DNA of 64,000 nt. It comes from Jiangella ureilytica (lineage in GTDB: Bacteria; Actinomycetota; Actinomycetes; Jiangellales; Jiangellaceae). The notes beneath the pieces were generated by a model, which saw only the letters and a list, made by a program, of their open reading frames with translations, had not been told where the DNA came from and searched no databases. The position numbers and the translations under genes were made by a program. The stretch lies in the NCBI RefSeq assembly GCF_004348545.1, contig NZ_SMKL01000002.1, forward strand, positions 124,001 through 188,000. Reading direction: 5' to 3'. Below, piece after piece: positions 31,316 to 37,773 of this stretch. Positions within the stretch are counted from its first letter, which is position 1. Every line of letters begins with the position of its first letter.

Positions 31316-32005
31316 CTAGGAGAGGTGGGCGGCGAGGTCGCGGAGCGAGGCGATGCGGTCGCGTTCGCCGGCCGGTCCGGTGCCGCGGCGGTCGAGGTGG
31401 ACGGCGCGCAGCCCGGCCGCGCGGGCGGCGACGACGTCGAGGTCGTGGTCGTCGCCGACGTAGAGGACGGCGGCCGGGTCGAGGCCGAGGGCGGCACACA
31501 GACCGGCGTAGGCGCGCGGGTCGGGCTTGGCGCACCCCAGCCCCTCGGCGGTGAGGACCGGGCCGACCCGGCCGGTCAGGCCGATGACGGCGAGCTTGTC
31601 GTGCTGCATGTCCTCGGGTCCGTTGGTGAGGATGCCGGTACGCAGACCGGCCGCGGCCACCAGAGCGAGCGCCGCCTCGGCGTCGTCGAAGCGCTGCCAG
31701 CCGGAGCGGTAGGCGAGGAAGTAGTCGCCCCACAGCGCGTCGAGCTCGGCCGGCTCCAGCGCCGGCCGGCCGAGCAGGTCGAGCAGCCCGCCGATCCGAC
31801 GCCGGCGCTGCTCGGCCATGCTGACCAGGCCGGCCCGCCAGGCGCCGAAGTGCAGGTCCTGCAGCTCGAACCAGGCGGCCGTCAGCTCGCTCGTCGCCGG
31901 TCCGTGGAAGCCGGCCAGCCAGGTGCCGAAGCCGCGGGTGGCGGAGCCGGAGTGGTCGAAGAGCGTGTCGTCGAGATCGAACACCACCGCCGCGAGCTCA
32001 GCCAC
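31316..32005 (-). CDS. HAD family hydrolase
   Basis: A 229-residue phosphatase-type protein: motif I DLDDTLFDH with both catalytic aspartates, motif II ILTNGPEDMQ, motif III lysine in GCAKPDPRAY and motif IV YVGDDHDLDV. A helical cap lies at about 15-85, the YjjG/phosphoglycolate-like subclass. The start is GTG at 32005, 6 nt after TAGGGT (32017-32012), a leaderless pattern. Substrate unknown; small phosphorylated metabolites or nucleotides are typical. Confidence 0.93.
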   Translation of the reverse strand: MAELAAVVFDLDDTLFDHSGSATRGFGTWLAGFHGPATSELTAAWFELQDLHFGAWRAGLVSMAEQRRRRIGGLLDLLGRPALEPAELDALWGDYFLAYRSGWQRFDDAEAALALVAAAGLRTGILTNGPEDMQHDKLAVIGLTGRVGPVLTAEGLGCAKPDPRAYAGLCAALGLDPAAVLYVGDDHDLDVVAARAAGLRAVHLDRRGTGPAGERDRIASLRDLAAHLS

Positions 32006-32014
32006 CCGCTCACC

Positions 32015-32524
32015 CTACGACGGCACGTCGGCCGCCCGGACCCACAGCCGTTCGCCGTCGTCGAAGCGGTCGGTCGGGCGCAGCCCGGCCCGTTGCGCGA
32101 CCGCCGCGGACGCCGTGTGGTCGGGGTGCACGTGCGCGACGATGGTCCGCACCCCGCGCCCGTCGAGCCAGCCGACCAGGGCCGCGGCCGCCGCCGTCGC
32201 GTACCCCTGGCCCTGGAAGGCCGTGCCGACGACCCAGGCGATCTCGGCCCGCGTGCCGTCGTCGGTGACGGTGGCCTGGACGGTGCCGACGGCTCGGCCG
32301 TCGGGCCGGCGCCGGATGATCCAGTTGAGCCACTGCTGCCGGTCGTCGGGCGAGCCGGCCACGAGCCGGGTGTAGCGCGTGCGCAGCTCGGCCAGCGTGG
32401 GCGGGGTGCCGCCGATGAACGAGTACAGCGCCGGGTCGGCCAGCACGTCGACCATGTCGGCCGCGTCGTCGACCAGGAGCGGCACGAGCTCGAGCCGGTC
32501 GGTCACGACCCTGCCGATGCTCAC
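32015..32524 (-). CDS. GNAT family N-acetyltransferase (RimJ/RimL-like)
   Basis: A 169-residue acetyltransferase of the RimJ/RimL group: TDRLELVPL opening, AEIAWVVGTAFQGQGYATAAAAALVGWL as motif A, and HPDHTASAAVAQRAGLR as motif B. These act on protein N-termini, ribosomal proteins or small molecules. The GTG at 32524 overlaps the upstream gene's stop as GTGA, making it the last gene of the leftward operon that begins with the exporter at 36776. Confidence 0.92.
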   Translation of the reverse strand: MSIGRVVTDRLELVPLLVDDAADMVDVLADPALYSFIGGTPPTLAELRTRYTRLVAGSPDDRQQWLNWIIRRRPDGRAVGTVQATVTDDGTRAEIAWVVGTAFQGQGYATAAAAALVGWLDGRGVRTIVAHVHPDHTASAAVAQRAGLRPTDRFDDGERLWVRAADVPS

Positions 32525-33621
32525 AGCAGGCTCACCGCGACGGTGGCCGACCGTTCGACGAACGCGCCGTGCGCGTCGGCGGCCGCCTGCAGCCCGGGTG
32601 TGACGGCGTCATGGAACGGCTCGTACAGGCCGACGTCGAGCGCGACCTCGCCGGAGCGCAGCGTCCGCTTCCACCGCCCGGCGACCTGGGTGCCGAGCAG
32701 CAGCACCCCGTTGGCGGCGGAGTCGAGCCGGGTGCCGGCGACGACGCCGGAGAGGTCGAGCAGGGGCTTGCTCTCGCTGTAGCCGACGAGGTACTCGTCG
32801 TACGGCTGCAGCAGGTGGACGGCGGTCTCGTCGACGTGGCTGGGAACGGCGTCGAACGCGCCCGCCGCGCACCAGTAGGTGACGCCGTCGACGTCGATGC
32901 TCTCGAGCGCGTCGCCGGCCGCGGCGATACCGGCCTTGAGGTCGGTGAGGGTGAGGCTGGACCACCACGACAGGTCCTTCACGGTGGCCGGGCCGTGGCT
33001 GGTGAAGAACCGCGTGGCCAGCCGGGCCAGCGCCTCGTCGCGGTCGAGCGGATCGGCCGCGGGCGCCCGCTCGTCGAGCAGGGCGTAGGTGTGCTGCCTG
33101 CCGTGCAGCGGGCCGCTGCAGATGACCTGTTCGAGCTCGGCGTAGATGAGGATGTAGCCGAGCCGGAACCGCTCGGCGACGATGCCGTGCCGCTCGAGCT
33201 CGGCCGCGACCTCGGTGCGGGTCAGGTGGTTCCCACCCGACAGGGCCGCCGCGATCAGGTCCGCGGCCCGCCGCAGCAGCGGCTCGTCGAGCTCGCTCTG
33301 CCGGTTGTAGTACGCGTTCAGCTGGTGCACCCGCGGCGCCGTCAGCCCGAGCAGCCAGCGGATGTCGGCCGGCGTGACGAAGTGCCAGGTGGGCCGGAGC
33401 ACGTGCGTCCGGAGCAGCTCGCCGTCGGCGAACGCCTGGTCCAGGCCGGCGTCGGTGACCGTACCGGCGAGCCGCTGGCCCACACCCCACTTCGCCGAGT
33501 GGTAGTCCTGCGACTGCACGGCGCCGAACCAGGCGACGACGCCGGCGGGCCCTTCGGCCTCGAGCGGAGCGCCGAGGCCGACCGTGCTCAGCCGCCGGCG
33601 CATGAGCTCCGCGTGGTCCAC
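32521..33621 (-). CDS. HTH_42 superfamily protein, second AlkZ-like putative DNA glycosylase
   Basis: A 366-residue winged-helix HTH_42 protein, paralogous to that at 8079-9221. WFGAVQSQDYHSAKWGV carries the Q-x-Q pair (Q36, Q38) that corresponds to the catalytic glutamines of AlkZ; RPTWHFVTPADIRWLL and the C-terminal GRWKRTLRSG are also conserved in the superfamily. It may excise bulky or crosslinked bases, for example after exposure to a DNA-damaging metabolite. The start is GTG at 33621, 3 bp after the DUF885 stop; the stop overlaps the GNAT start. Confidence 0.82.
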   Translation of the reverse strand: MDHAELMRRRLSTVGLGAPLEAEGPAGVVAWFGAVQSQDYHSAKWGVGQRLAGTVTDAGLDQAFADGELLRTHVLRPTWHFVTPADIRWLLGLTAPRVHQLNAYYNRQSELDEPLLRRAADLIAAALSGGNHLTRTEVAAELERHGIVAERFRLGYILIYAELEQVICSGPLHGRQHTYALLDERAPAADPLDRDEALARLATRFFTSHGPATVKDLSWWSSLTLTDLKAGIAAAGDALESIDVDGVTYWCAAGAFDAVPSHVDETAVHLLQPYDEYLVGYSESKPLLDLSGVVAGTRLDSAANGVLLLGTQVAGRWKRTLRSGEVALDVGLYEPFHDAVTPGLQAAADAHGAFVERSATVAVSLL

Positions 33622-33624
33622 GGG

Positions 33625-35298
33625 TCAGTCCTGCCGGGCGGCCCAGGCACCCACGACCTCGTCGAGCACCCCCATGGGCAGCGGGCCGTTGCCGAGCACG
33701 AGGTCGTGGAAGCCGCGCAGGTCGAACCGGTCGCCCGCGGTGGCCTCGGCGGCAGCCCGGATGCGCTGGATCTCGAGCCGCCCCACCATGTAGGCCAGCG
33801 CCTGGCCGGGTGCGGAGATGTACCGGTCGACCTCGGTCTCGATCTCGACCCGGCTGGTCGCGGTGTTGTCGACCATGAAGCCGACGGCCTGCTGCCGGCT
33901 CCAGCCCTTGGCGTGCAGCCCGGTGTCGACGACCAGCCGGCAGGCCCGCATGGAGTCCTCGCTGAGCATGCCGAGCCGGGCGACGTCGTCGGAGTAGAGG
34001 CCCATCTCGTCGGCCAGCCGCTCGGCATAGAGGCCCCAGCCCTCGTCGAACGCCGTGATGGAGGCGAGCCGGCGCAGCAGCGGGAGGTCGCTGAGCTCTT
34101 GGGCGATGGTGAGCTGGAAGTGGTGCCCGGGCACGGCTTCGTGGAACGCGACGGCCTCGGCGCTGTAGCGGTCGCGCTTCTCGGCCTCGTGGGTGTTGGC
34201 GAAGTAGGTGCCGGGCCGGCTGCCGTCCATGGCCGGCTGCATGTAGTAGGCGCCCGGCGCGCCGGGTGCCTCGGCGGCCGGGACCGCCTCGACGACGCAG
34301 CTCTGCGACGGCAGCCGGCCGAACCACTGGGGCGCCACCTGCTCGGCCCGCTGGATGGCGGCGCGGGCGGCCGCGAGCAGCTCGTCGCCGTCGCGCCAGC
34401 GCATGGCGGGGTCGGTGCGCAGCCGCTCGAGGATCTCGGCCTGGTCGCCGGTGCCGAAGACCCTGGCGCCGACCTCGGCGTACTCGTCGGTGAGCCGGGC
34501 CAGCACGTCGAGGCCGGTCTGGTGCAGCTCGTCGGGCGTGCGCGTGGTGGTCGTGTGGGCGCGGGTGAGCCGGGCGTAGAACTCGTCGCCACCGGGCAGC
34601 CAGCACAGCCCGCCCTTGTCGTCGGGACGGCCGTGCGGGACGACGTGGGCGGCGACCGCGTCGCGGTAGCGGGCGATCGCGGGATGGACGACCTCGGTGA
34701 GCAGGCGGTCGCGCTCGGCCCGGAACGCGGCGGTGTCGGTGCCGCTGCCGGCGGCCGGCTCGGGGCGGCGGAGCGGGTCGTCCTGGGGCTTCGCGACGTA
34801 GCGGGTGAAGTGCTCGGCGGTGGCCTCGGCCAGCCGGCGCACGGGCAGCCGGCCGGCGGCGATGCCGGCGCGGTGGCGCTCGGCGATGGCGTCGAGCAGG
34901 GCCGGCAGCCCGGCCAGCCGGGCGAGGTAGCCGTCGGCGTGCGCGGGCTCGGTGATGCCGATCATGGTCAGCGACGAGAGTGTGGCGCTGGCCGCGGCGA
35001 AGAAGGAGTCGGTGACGGTGTACTCGACGCCGCGGGTGGCGATGTGGTCGCTCTCGGACTCGGCCTGCTGCAGGATGACCGCACGCGTGATGCGCTCGCC
35101 GTCGTCGAGGCCGGCGGGGTCGACGGCCTCGGCCCGGGCGGCCACGGAGGCCAGCCGGTCGGCGATCGCGGCCTGGCCGGCCTCGGTGTAGTCGGTGAGG
35201 CGGTCCTCGCGGTCGCGCAGGCCGAGCAGTGAGGCGTCGACCGGGTAGGCGTCGAACAGGACGTCGATGAGCTCGTCGGCGAGCTGGGCGATGGTCAT
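33625..35298 (-). CDS. DUF885 family protein (putative zinc-dependent hydrolase)
   Basis: A 557-residue, largely helical protein of the DUF885 family, distantly related to M3-type metallopeptidases. The metal-binding segment FHEAVPGHHFQ is present, and EGWGLYAERLADEMG provides the downstream glutamate. It has no signal peptide, so it is cytosolic. The ATG at 35298 overlaps the exporter stop as ATGA. Members have been linked to peptide or amide hydrolysis; the real substrate is unknown. Confidence 0.9.
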   Translation of the reverse strand: MTIAQLADELIDVLFDAYPVDASLLGLRDREDRLTDYTEAGQAAIADRLASVAARAEAVDPAGLDDGERITRAVILQQAESESDHIATRGVEYTVTDSFFAAASATLSSLTMIGITEPAHADGYLARLAGLPALLDAIAERHRAGIAAGRLPVRRLAEATAEHFTRYVAKPQDDPLRRPEPAAGSGTDTAAFRAERDRLLTEVVHPAIARYRDAVAAHVVPHGRPDDKGGLCWLPGGDEFYARLTRAHTTTTRTPDELHQTGLDVLARLTDEYAEVGARVFGTGDQAEILERLRTDPAMRWRDGDELLAAARAAIQRAEQVAPQWFGRLPSQSCVVEAVPAAEAPGAPGAYYMQPAMDGSRPGTYFANTHEAEKRDRYSAEAVAFHEAVPGHHFQLTIAQELSDLPLLRRLASITAFDEGWGLYAERLADEMGLYSDDVARLGMLSEDSMRACRLVVDTGLHAKGWSRQQAVGFMVDNTATSRVEIETEVDRYISAPGQALAYMVGRLEIQRIRAAAEATAGDRFDLRGFHDLVLGNGPLPMGVLDEVVGAWAARQD

Positions 35299-36776
35299 GC
35301 GGAACTCCCACGGGGTCGATGCGTCGGAACGACGCTATCCCGGCGGGCCGACAGCGCGACAACCGTGATCGCCAAGGCCGAGACCAGCGCGGCGCTCACC
35401 GTCGCGGCGACGCTGATGCCGTCGGTGAACGCCTCGCGCGCGGCCGCCAGCACGACCTGGTCCTCGACCGACGCGACGGCCGCGCCCAGCGTGTCCGCCC
35501 CGGTGTCCGTGCCCCGGAACACCGCCGCCACCACGCTGCCCAGGACGGCGATGCCCAGCGCTCCGCCGAGCTGCGGCGCCATGGACGACAGCGCCGCGGC
35601 GGCACCGGCCCGCTCCGGCGGCGCGGCCCCGACCACCTCGTCGGTGGCCAGCGCCATCATCGGGCCGAGTCCCGCCGACACCGTCACCGACCCGGCCACC
35701 AGCAGGCCCAGTCCGGAGGTCGCGGTCAGCTGGGTGAGCAGCACGAAACCGGCAGCCGACACCGTCAGGCCGGCGCCGATCACCACACCCGGCCGGAGCC
35801 GCCGGGTCAGCCGGGGCGCCAGCAGCGAGCCCACGATCACGCCGAACGCCGACGGCGCCGTCCACAGTCCCGCCTCGAGCGGGTCGAGTCCTTGCACCAA
35901 CTGCAGGTACTGGGCGAGGTAGTAGTTCGCGCCCCAGAGCACGAAGATGCCGACGGCCAGGGTCGCGACCGCGGCGGCGAACGCCGGTTCCCGGAACAGC
36001 CGCACGTCGACGACGGGATCGGCGAGCGACCACTGCCGGCGCACGAACACCGTCCCGACCACCAGCCCGGCGACGGCGGCGCCCGCGGCGGCCGCGCCCA
36101 CCCCGTCGGCCGCGATCTCCTTCAGTCCCCAGACCAGCGGCAGGACGGCACCGAGCGACAGCACCACGCTGACGACGTCGATCCGCGCGGTTCCAGGGCC
36201 GCGGAACTCCGGCAGCAGCACCGGGCCGAGCAGGAGGATCAGCACCATCACCGGCAGGCCGAGCAGGAAGACCGAACCCCACCAGAACCGCTCCAGCAGC
36301 GCCCCGCCGACGAGCGGCCCGACCGCCGTGCCGCCGGACACGCTGGCGATGACGATCCCGACGGCGACGGCCCGCTGCCGCGCGTCGCGGAACATCGTCG
36401 CCGTCAGCGAGAGCGTCGACGGCATCAGCGTCGCGCCGGCCACGCCGAGCAGCGCCCGCGCGGCGATGAGCAGCTCGGCGGTGGGCGCGTAGGCGGCGAG
36501 GACCGAGAGCACGCCGTACGCGCCGGCACCGATCATCAGCAGCCGCCGCCGGCCGATCCGGTCGCCGACGGCGCCCAGCGCCAGCATCGACCCGGCCAGC
36601 AGGAACGCGTACACGTCGACGATCCAGAGCAGTTGCGTCCCGGACGGCCGCAGGTCGGCGTCGATGGCCGGCAGCGCGAGGTGGGTGACGGTCAGTTCGA
36701 GCGAGGCGAGCAGCGCCACGACGCAGAGGACGGCGAGTCCGGCCCAGGACCGGCGAGCGGGTTCGGTGGTGGTCAC
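35295..36776 (-). CDS. DHA2-type 14-helix MFS drug exporter
   Basis: A 493-residue proton-driven exporter of the SmvA/QacA group. It has about 14 hydrophobic helices, loop motif LGAVGDRIGRRRLL after helix 2 and motif C GIVIASVSGGTAVGPLVGG in helix 5. The family exports quaternary cations, dyes and antibiotics. The GTG at 36776 is chosen because AACGCT ends 6 nt before it in a SoxR/MerR-type promoter; a TTG seven codons upstream lies inside the promoter. It is first in a four-gene leftward operon: exporter, DUF885, AlkZ-like, GNAT. Confidence 0.92.
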   Translation of the reverse strand: MTTTEPARRSWAGLAVLCVVALLASLELTVTHLALPAIDADLRPSGTQLLWIVDVYAFLLAGSMLALGAVGDRIGRRRLLMIGAGAYGVLSVLAAYAPTAELLIAARALLGVAGATLMPSTLSLTATMFRDARQRAVAVGIVIASVSGGTAVGPLVGGALLERFWWGSVFLLGLPVMVLILLLGPVLLPEFRGPGTARIDVVSVVLSLGAVLPLVWGLKEIAADGVGAAAAGAAVAGLVVGTVFVRRQWSLADPVVDVRLFREPAFAAAVATLAVGIFVLWGANYYLAQYLQLVQGLDPLEAGLWTAPSAFGVIVGSLLAPRLTRRLRPGVVIGAGLTVSAAGFVLLTQLTATSGLGLLVAGSVTVSAGLGPMMALATDEVVGAAPPERAGAAAALSSMAPQLGGALGIAVLGSVVAAVFRGTDTGADTLGAAVASVEDQVVLAAAREAFTDGISVAATVSAALVSALAITVVALSARRDSVVPTHRPRGSSA

Positions 36777-36782
36777 GGAGCC

Positions 36783-36813
36783 AGCGTTCAATCTCAACCA
36801 TAGTTGAGGTCAA
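36783..36813 (-). promoter_or_regulatory. SoxR/MerR-type promoter of the exporter operon
   Basis: Reading leftward: TTGACC at 36813-36808, a 19-bp spacer, then AACGCT at 36788-36783. The 18-bp box CCTCAACTATGGTTGAGA (36809-36792) overlaps the -35 and fills the spacer. The geometry is the same as E. coli soxS, where SoxR binds CCTCAA-N6-TTGAGG in a 19-bp spacer; only the last base differs. No merR-family gene is adjacent, so the activator acts from elsewhere. Confidence 0.65.
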
Positions 36814-36845: not shown

Positions 36846-37289
36846 ATGAACGGACCCACTGACGACCTTCCCGCCCCGCCGGACGACGCCGACCCGGCCA
36901 CCGTCGTGGCCGTCGGCGAGCTGACCGAGGCCCTCGAGACGACCGAGGTGGCACGTGGTCACCTGTTCGCGTTCCACCAGCTCACCGGGTCGGCCGACTT
37001 CAAGCTCGAGAGTGCCATCGAGAAGCTGGAGGAGGCCGGGCACGGCGAGTTCGCGGCCCGGCTGCGGCGCGAGCTGCTCGGCCGCAACGTCCTGCCGGGC
37101 CGGTGGACGTTCCAGGTCGTCGAGGACTACGAGGAGACGTACTACGAGCCGTTCAAGGCGCTCGAGCGGGCCGGCCGCGACCTCGTCGGAGGGCGGCCGC
37201 ACCTGTACGAGGCCGATCTGAAGCGCCGTCGCCGCAGCGCCGGCGAGCCCGGCCACGAGGCGACCCCCTCCGACCTGTCGTCCGGCTGA
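36846..37289 (+). CDS. Conserved actinobacterial hypothetical protein, 147 aa
   Basis: A 147-residue soluble protein. The N-terminus is proline/aspartate-rich and disordered-looking; then comes a helical core VAVGELTEALETTEVARGHLFAFHQLTGSADFKLESAIEKLEEAG, an EFAARLRRELLGRNVLPGRW stretch, and VVEDYEETYYEPFKALERAGRDL. GGAGG stands 4 nt before the ATG. It is followed after 1 bp by the pyrimidine-dimer-glycosylase-like gene, so they are one unit. I do not recognise a characterised family. Confidence 0.8.
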   Translation: MNGPTDDLPAPPDDADPATVVAVGELTEALETTEVARGHLFAFHQLTGSADFKLESAIEKLEEAGHGEFAARLRRELLGRNVLPGRWTFQVVEDYEETYYEPFKALERAGRDLVGGRPHLYEADLKRRRRSAGEPGHEATPSDLSSG

Positions 37290-37290
37290 C

Positions 37291-37773
37291 GTGCAGACGT
37301 TCCTGCCGTACGCGGACTTCCGCGCCAGCGCGACGGTGCTGGACCGGCGCCGGCTCGGCAAGCAGCGGGTCGAGGCACTGCAGGTGCTGCGCGCCCTGAT
37401 CCGTCCCGGCTACGGCTGGCGGCACCACCCGGCCGCGGCGATGTGGGCCGGCTACGAGGAGGCGCTGACCCGCTACGGCCTCGACGTCTGCGCCGTCTGG
37501 CGCTCGCTCGGGCACGGCGACTCGGTCGCGGCGTCGCTGACGGCGGACCTCGCGGCGGCGACGGGGCTGACGGCGGTGCGCGCGCAGCCGAGGCTCACGG
37601 CCGACGGCGACGTCCCGCCCTGGCTCGGCGAGGAGGAGTTCCACCGGAGCCACCGGTCGGCGCTGGTGCGCAAGGACCCGGACCACTACGGCCACCTGTT
37701 CCCCGGTGTTCCGCCCGATCTCCCCTACGTCTGGCCGGCGTCGGACCGTCCCCGCCGCCTGCCGCTGCCGTGA
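37291..37773 (+). CDS. MSMEG_6728-like (Pyr_excise) protein
   Basis: A 160-residue protein opening MQTFLPYADFRASATVLDRR, then RLGKQRVEALQVL, and containing WRHHPAAAMW and RSHRSALVRKDPDHY. This is the pattern of MSMEG_6728 proteins, which share a fold with T4 endonuclease V (pyrimidine dimer DNA glycosylase). The catalytic threonine and glutamate equivalents are not certain from inspection, so DNA repair is a suggestion only. The GTG at 37291 follows the previous stop by 1 bp. Confidence 0.85.
   Translation: MQTFLPYADFRASATVLDRRRLGKQRVEALQVLRALIRPGYGWRHHPAAAMWAGYEEALTRYGLDVCAVWRSLGHGDSVAASLTADLAAATGLTAVRAQPRLTADGDVPPWLGEEEFHRSHRSALVRKDPDHYGHLFPGVPPDLPYVWPASDRPRRLPLP

Follow-up and report, generated by a model that had tools for sequence, protein, structure and literature searches.

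Within the 64,000-nucleotide stretch of Jiangella ureilytica DNA analysed here (the window, in whose coordinates all positions are given), a promoter element on the minus strand lies directly before the gene of a DHA2-type drug exporter, and further genes follow in the same direction:

36808 to 36813, minus strand: -35 element TTGACC, read from the sequence
36789 to 36807, minus strand (read from 36807 to 36789): 19-nt spacer TCAACTATGGTTGAGATTG, read from the sequence
36793 to 36808, no strand assigned: predicted SoxR box, dyad CTCAACTATGGTTGAG in minus-strand letters, found in dyad searches and overlapping the end of the -35 element
36783 to 36788, minus strand: -10 element AACGCT, 19 nt from the -35 element, its position conserved in other genomes
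36777 to 36782, minus strand (read from 36782 to 36777): GGCTCC, the 6 nt between -10 element and GTG, read from the sequence
36774 to 36776, minus strand: GTG start of the exporter, 6 nt after the -10 element; predicted 5' end of a leaderless mRNA
35295 to 36776, minus strand: DHA2-type MFS drug exporter, here MFS-A, 493 aa (PF07690, 142 bits)
35299 to 35353, minus strand: conserved leader before the DUF885 gene, with the ribosome-binding-like GGGAG and TA[CG][CG]GT, within the 3' end of the exporter gene (from alignment)
33625 to 35298, minus strand: DUF885 protein, 557 aa, with HEAVPGHH (PF05960, 547 bits; PDB 3o0y, 243 bits)
32521 to 33621, minus strand: AlkZ-like (HTH_42) protein, 366 aa, with QSQ at residues 36-38 (PF06224, 197 bits)
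32015 to 32524, minus strand: GNAT acetyltransferase (PF13302, 90 bits)
31316 to 32005, minus strand: HAD-like hydrolase (PF00702, 80 bits), co-directional and possibly the last gene of the run; absent from the preliminary description of this DNA

That description had read the element as TTGACC, a 19-nt spacer carrying CCTCAA-N6-TTGAGA, and AACGCT, and these letters and their coordinates are confirmed, the initial CC being the end of the -35 element. In fact, the first C of CTCAACTATGGTTGAG is the last base of TTGACC, and within the spacer the dyad takes the form CTCAAC-N4-GTTGAG. A CTCAA-N6-TTGAG dyad inside a 19-nt -35/-10 spacer is the arrangement expected of a SoxR promoter, and it is present here. 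The element had also been said to superimpose on E. coli soxS. This stands for the outer half-sites, which match, but not for the inner pair, which is C...G here and G...C in the E. coli consensus as excerpted from PMC4411124.

With at most one mismatch, CTCAA-N6-TTGAG occurs once in the window, at the exporter site and with 0 mismatches; shuffled windows gave 0.31 matches on average and at least one match in 23 of 100. The longer pattern TTGACCTCAAC-N4-GTTGAG, allowed up to three mismatches, recovers the exporter site (0 mismatches) and its own opposite strand (3), against a mean of 0.08 matches in shuffles. TTGACC is unchanged in 17 of the 18 boxed exporter orthologues, the exception being TTGATC at locus L042. 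As a -10 element, AACGCT is a weak match. The assignment is nonetheless supported by conservation at the 19-nt spacing outside the family, where the hexamer has A at base 2 in 49 of 54 boxes and T at base 6 in all 54 (14 boxes given as loci plus 40 picked in order among the matches listed). The corresponding counts among Jiangella boxes are 59 and 82 of 84; this set joins 78 fetched boxes to the six of the own genome, after dropping matches in which two or fewer of the four free half-site letters agreed, except the symmetric CTGAA...TTCAG.

Could the box instead serve mainly the divergent gene, which encodes a 147 aa protein from an ATG at 36846, with the exporter promoter being secondary? The dyad is symmetric and ends 37 nt before this ATG. 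However, TTGACC and the conserved -10 position are found on the exporter strand, the opposite strand has three mismatches to the -35-plus-box pattern, and the 147 aa protein is encoded in only 4 of 12 Jiangella genomes (one match partial) while the box stays with the exporter elsewhere. We set this reading aside as highly improbable.

A predicted SoxR box and its probable regulator

The preliminary description proposed looking for soxR elsewhere in the genome and would have counted its absence as a refutation; the search did not refute the proposal. A single true SoxR is encoded there, on another contig than the exporter, scoring 220.8 bits where the cut-off is 116.9 (the runner-up match reaches 71). 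It carries CIGCGCLSLRRC and the four cluster cysteines, and aligns with E. coli SoxR 2zhg over residues 8-152 of 156 (E 3.7e-51). The exact dyad CTCAA-N6-TTGAG is present at six places in the whole genome (6,345,964 bases), in which a reversed control pattern has 0 matches: one lies where soxR diverges from a zinc-type dehydrogenase gene (its product probably a quinone oxidoreductase), three precede MFS exporters, MFS-A among them, and the remaining two precede an LLM (luciferase-like) monooxygenase and a SnoaL/DUF4440 protein. The box seen at the exporter also adjoins the gene of its putative regulator. TGA or TAG codons inside some SoxR matches raised the idea of an oddly recoded SoxR, which we rejected: in all nine stop-bearing stretches among ten checked, the stop comes after the last cluster cysteine, and is thus an ordinary gene end.

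Long-spacer architecture is common to MerR boxes in general (PMC5045206, in the part available), and the genome holds 22 MerR-domain matches, so that another MerR-family regulator could read the box and sense the exporter substrate. The surroundings of the boxes argue otherwise. A MerR-domain match lies within 1.5 kb at only one of the six dyads, the one at soxR, and after it comes a gene on contig C139 that has two MerR matches and lies about 2.7 kb away from the dyad there. Box and SoxR also keep company across genomes: among 246 Actinomycetes genomes, TTGACCTCAA-N6-TTGAG was found, among the matches listed, in 81 of 128 with SoxR (E <= 1e-30) and in 1 of 118 without (Fisher 7e-30). When the 22 genomes belonging to the own family are set aside, the figures become 61 of 107 against 1 of 117 (Fisher 4e-24), the counts entering both tests being taken by eye from match tables. 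The exact box is absent from 47 of the 128 SoxR-bearing genomes. The single boxed genome without a SoxR match at E <= 1e-30, G057, carries two full boxes.

A further line of evidence comes from the exporter itself. Its nearest NCBIfam models are QepA, LfrA, SmvA and QacA/B, every one scoring below its cut-off, and its best PDB match is 7y58 (251 bits), titled 'Antiseptic resistance protein'. It is 85-92% identical to orthologues in five named Jiangella species (one match partial). The preliminary description had also called for a comparison of orthologous promoters. Among 43 relatives fetched from named genomes, 18 have the box: five from Jiangella and 13 from Nonomuraea (2), Rhizohabitans, Microtetraspora (2), Planobispora, Micromonospora (2), Phytoactinopolyspora, Bailinhaonella, Pseudonocardia, Sphaerisporangium and Microbispora. 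The 25 relatives that lack it are mostly more distant (about 52% identity or less, bar one short segment at 57%). At eight of the 13 boxed loci outside Jiangella, soxR itself diverges from the exporter across the box, and the SoxRs encoded there are 62-69% identical to the resident SoxR and retain all four cluster cysteines. With SoxR as the linked regulator in these eight other genomes, control by a different MerR protein appears very unlikely, and we set it aside.

The most fitting view of the exporter is that of a soxR-linked module that is separated from soxR in Jiangella, where the genome's own SoxR reads it. It is as if the module had been inserted at different points in Jiangella. Here, the 147 aa gene and a pyrimidine-dimer-glycosylase-like gene (36846-37770) both diverge from the exporter; in J. 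aurantiaca (L038, L290, G009) the same two genes flank it on either side. In the window, 37291-37773, also divergent from the exporter, encodes an MSMEG_6728 family protein that carries a pyrimidine dimer DNA glycosylase domain (PF03013). In another Jiangella genome (G008, locus L162), the exporter is an internally deleted remnant, with only its first and last residues left behind an intact-looking SoxR box, and the gene after it, read by eye, encodes a serine-protease-like protein.

Taken together, the resident SoxR, the rarity of the dyad, the soxR linkage and the co-occurrence across genomes leave SoxR control of the exporter, as the preliminary description had suggested, a well-supported prediction. 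We propose that the element is a SoxR-activated promoter of the MerR type, that the exporter mRNA is leaderless and that transcription may read through into the DUF885, AlkZ-like and GNAT genes, and put the probability of this reading at roughly 0.87. Box, spacing, soxR, co-occurrence, exporter-soxR linkage and start spacing are its sequence-based parts; binding, redox response, transcription start and read-through are borrowed from the established MerR/SoxR mechanism. Reduced SoxR would sit on the dyad in the 19-nt spacer, which is too long for RNA polymerase. A redox-active compound would then oxidise the [2Fe-2S] cluster, upon which SoxR would untwist the DNA and the promoter fire. Transcription would start at or beside the GTG, so that the mRNA of the DHA2 exporter would have no leader, and it might run on into the genes behind it.

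Start spacing and the genes downstream

In actinobacteria, a 5'-terminal ATG or GTG suffices for translation. The preliminary description placed the exporter GTG exactly 6 nt after the -10 element, which proves correct, and its leaderless reading holds as a matter of spacing: the start codon follows the -10 position by 6-7 nt in 18 of 18 boxed exporter orthologues. With transcription starting where expected, 6-8 nt after the -10 element, there is no room for a ribosome-binding site before this GTG and no better start, the next in-frame GTG lying 57 nt further on, at a cost of 19 residues. The evidence thus supports a predicted leaderless exporter mRNA.

The layout is not confined to the exporter. 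At all six boxes of the genome an ATG or GTG follows the -10 position at a distance of 6 or 7 nt, and among the 84 boxes of 12 Jiangella genomes such a codon occurs at offset 6 in 32, at offset 7 in 35 and at offset 8 in 3, whereas other offsets average about 1.7 each (about 1.5 outside the family). A frame of at least 80 codons opens at offset 6-8 in 67 of the 84, or in 66 when a recognised product is required, as in the tally by target. In this tally, short spacing is found for the exporter in 11 of 11 cases, for the second and third MFS proteins in 12 of 12 and 11 of 11, for the MFS protein by the second SoxR in 5 of 5, for the SnoaL-like protein in 11 of 11, for a second dehydrogenase in 4 of 4, for LLM in 8 of 10, for VOC in 1 of 1 and for ABC in 1 of 2 (the second dehydrogenase, second-SoxR MFS, VOC and ABC being named from sequence motifs, with no family search). 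The dehydrogenase beside soxR has it in only 2 of 11 and is mostly leadered, and it is never seen at the six boxes that have no recognised product (0 of 6). Of the 54 boxes outside the family, 31 combine 6-8 nt spacing with an open frame and 23 do not. These 23, the mostly leadered dehydrogenase and the 39-42 nt leader of mfsA (PMC4411124, in the text available) mean that leaderlessness is no rule of SoxR promoters. At the level of search results, our literature search turned up no paper apparently about leaderless SoxR targets (SoxR; MerR in actinobacteria). Through the short spacing, what had been a remark on a single site becomes a testable property of many SoxR promoters.

Does the promoter also drive the genes behind the exporter? 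The preliminary description saw exporter, DUF885, AlkZ-like and GNAT genes as one SoxR operon and a coherent self-protection set, which with the HAD-like gene added would combine export, DNA repair and chemical modification. The genes do overlap or nearly touch: exporter and DUF885 overlap by 4 bases, 3 nt separate DUF885 from the AlkZ-like gene, the latter overlaps GNAT by 4 bases, and a 9-nt gap precedes HAD. Moreover, in 9 of 12 Jiangella genomes the DUF885 gene adjoins the exporter or comes close behind it, and AlkZ family proteins can confer self-resistance (PMC9040887, as excerpted). Read-through from the SoxR promoter into the downstream genes is thus plausible here.

As a selected set, however, the run is the weakest part of the earlier reading. 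In the remaining three genomes, an antisense gene lies between (G009), the exporter is gutted (G008) or the junction falls at a contig end (G013); GNAT is absent between the AlkZ-like and HAD genes in J. anatolica (L036); and none of the 13 boxed exporter loci outside Jiangella has a DUF885, AlkZ-like or GNAT match in flanks of up to 6 kb. DUF885 also seems to have arrangements of its own. The roughly 55 nt before it are alike in 11 Jiangella genomes but only slightly similar in the single further genus aligned, and they are kept even in the two genomes where the exporter is gutted or separated, which suggests a leader belonging to DUF885, perhaps with a promoter, inside the end of the exporter gene. 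The protein itself may be metallopeptidase-like, to judge from its sequence, and matches solved structures titled only lipoprotein or uncharacterized protein; our literature search found no paper joining DUF885 with SoxR. The AlkZ-like protein belongs to its family (the 197 bits to PF06224 compare with a cut-off of 25.9) and matches AlkZ 5uuj with 57 bits. The catalytic signature published for such proteins is (Q/H)-aliphatic-Q, in the part of PMC9040887 available; both glutamines are kept in QSQ, but the middle serine is not aliphatic. QSQ recurs in all 10 Jiangella loci that were checked, not all of which come from different species. We consider the self-protection operon unlikely, at about one chance in four, and retain the SoxR-activated exporter promoter, with read-through into the neighbouring genes as an option.

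Recognition helix and half-site base 4

The boxes of exporter orthologues vary, often symmetrically, at half-site base 4. The SoxR residue compared with it is the bracketed one of the helix SGVAV[S]ALHFYE, which alignment with 2zhg identifies as Ser25 here and Ser26 in E. coli. Of 72 SoxR genes examined, 43 lie next to a strong box (36 with Ser, 6 with Thr, 1 with Pro), and at the other 29 the box is weak or missing, the search being limited to dyads starting with CT and ending with AG, up to about 260 nt upstream. Base 4 is A in 70 of 72 half-sites beside Ser-SoxR, in 0 of 12 beside Thr-SoxR and in 2 of 2 beside Pro-SoxR; Fisher's test of Ser/Thr against base 4 gives 8e-13 by half-site and 5e-6 by gene, on counts that a scripted recount confirmed. 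The SoxR genes share ancestry, with 24 of the 36 that have Ser coming from the own family, so that the counts are not independent. Example loci are L039, L043-L045, L061, L072, L307, L308 and L343.

Five genomes whose exporter has no soxR in its flanks offer a further comparison. The rule held in four of them, Rhizohabitans with Thr and a base other than A, and Microtetraspora sp., Planobispora and Bailinhaonella with Ser and A; it was mixed in Nonomuraea antri, where a Ser-SoxR goes with A in one half-site and G in the other. Two more Thr-SoxR genomes have no close box, and in these a dyad that follows TTGAC and lacks A at base 4 lies about 800 nt upstream. In a tree of 82 SoxRs, Thr occurs in three separate places, namely the exporter-linked clade, Rhizohabitans and the two further genomes, and the Fitch minimum over all letters is 6 changes. 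The exporter-linked clade has low internal support and also contains two Ser members with CTCAA-like boxes. In several genera the exporter box, there next to a Thr-SoxR gene, resembles CTCGAC, and in Jiangella, with its resident Ser-SoxR, it resembles CTCAAC.

These correlations suggest a specificity switch in SoxR. We tentatively envision that a single Ser/Thr exchange sets base 4 to A or not A and so allows separate SoxR circuits in actinobacteria, that the exporter module has moved between such circuits, and that most SoxR targets in Jiangella, the exporters above all, are leaderless; we hold this combined picture to be slightly short of an even bet. If it is true, leaderless targets could perhaps free translation from the need for a leader during redox-antibiotic stress. 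The correlation between Ser/Thr and base 4 offers a simple, testable proposal for how several SoxRs are kept apart in one genome. None of the best literature matches on SoxR and DNA recognition, which do not include the SoxR-DNA crystal paper, mentions Ser26, and the point may already be in print.

Several Jiangella genomes also encode a second SoxR, which adjoins an MFS-like gene with CTCAAG...CTTGAG boxes (L102, L104-L106, L138, L154, L184, L198, L199, L210). With their E. coli-like inner base, these differ from most boxes of the other targets and may point to a second specificity position.

Comparison with known systems

The promoter described here finds counterparts in several studied systems. 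The -35/-10 spacing of E. coli soxRS is alike. Box geometry is shared too (consensus as in the excerpted PMC4411124), whereas the inner base pair of the dyad differs and, unlike in E. coli, the exporter is the predicted direct target. The AlkZ-like protein resembles AlkZ (5uuj) and the AlkZ-like glycosylases (PMC9040887, in part) in its HTH_42 family and its two motif glutamines, and departs from them in its middle Ser and in a match of only 57 bits.

In Streptomyces coelicolor, the SoxR regulon (ecaA-ecaD, SCO2478, SCO0320ext) comprises a transporter, a monooxygenase and redox enzymes and responds to a redox-active antibiotic (PMC4146615, in the part available). The regulon predicted for Jiangella is similarly compact, with a transporter and redox enzymes under SoxR boxes, but the transporter is ABC in S. 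coelicolor, whereas half of the six boxes here serve MFS exporters. According to the same text, soxR is not autoregulated in S. coelicolor, whereas here a box lies between soxR and the zinc-type dehydrogenase. The word 'leader' is absent from the available text of PMC4146615, although its Fig. 3C gives distances to start codons, so that the short spacing may already be visible in print.

Closest is mfsA-soxR of Stenotrophomonas maltophilia, where CTCAAC...GTTGAG within TTGACC-19-CATGCT binds SoxR, as established by gel shift and mutation, and induction was shown (PMC4411124, as excerpted). MFS gene, TTGACC, 19-nt spacer and CTCAAC...GTTGAG all recur in Jiangella, where they are known from sequence; our literature search found no paper with both SoxR and Jiangella. 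In Stenotrophomonas mfsA, as at the eight loci outside Jiangella, soxR is divergent, whereas in this Jiangella it lies on another contig; and the mfsA leader of 39-42 nt contrasts with a start 6 nt after the -10 element here. An orthologous exporter is tied to soxR across several actinobacterial genera. The switch itself is of a known kind; what is informative is its predicted leaderless layout and the way in which sensor and DNA site match.
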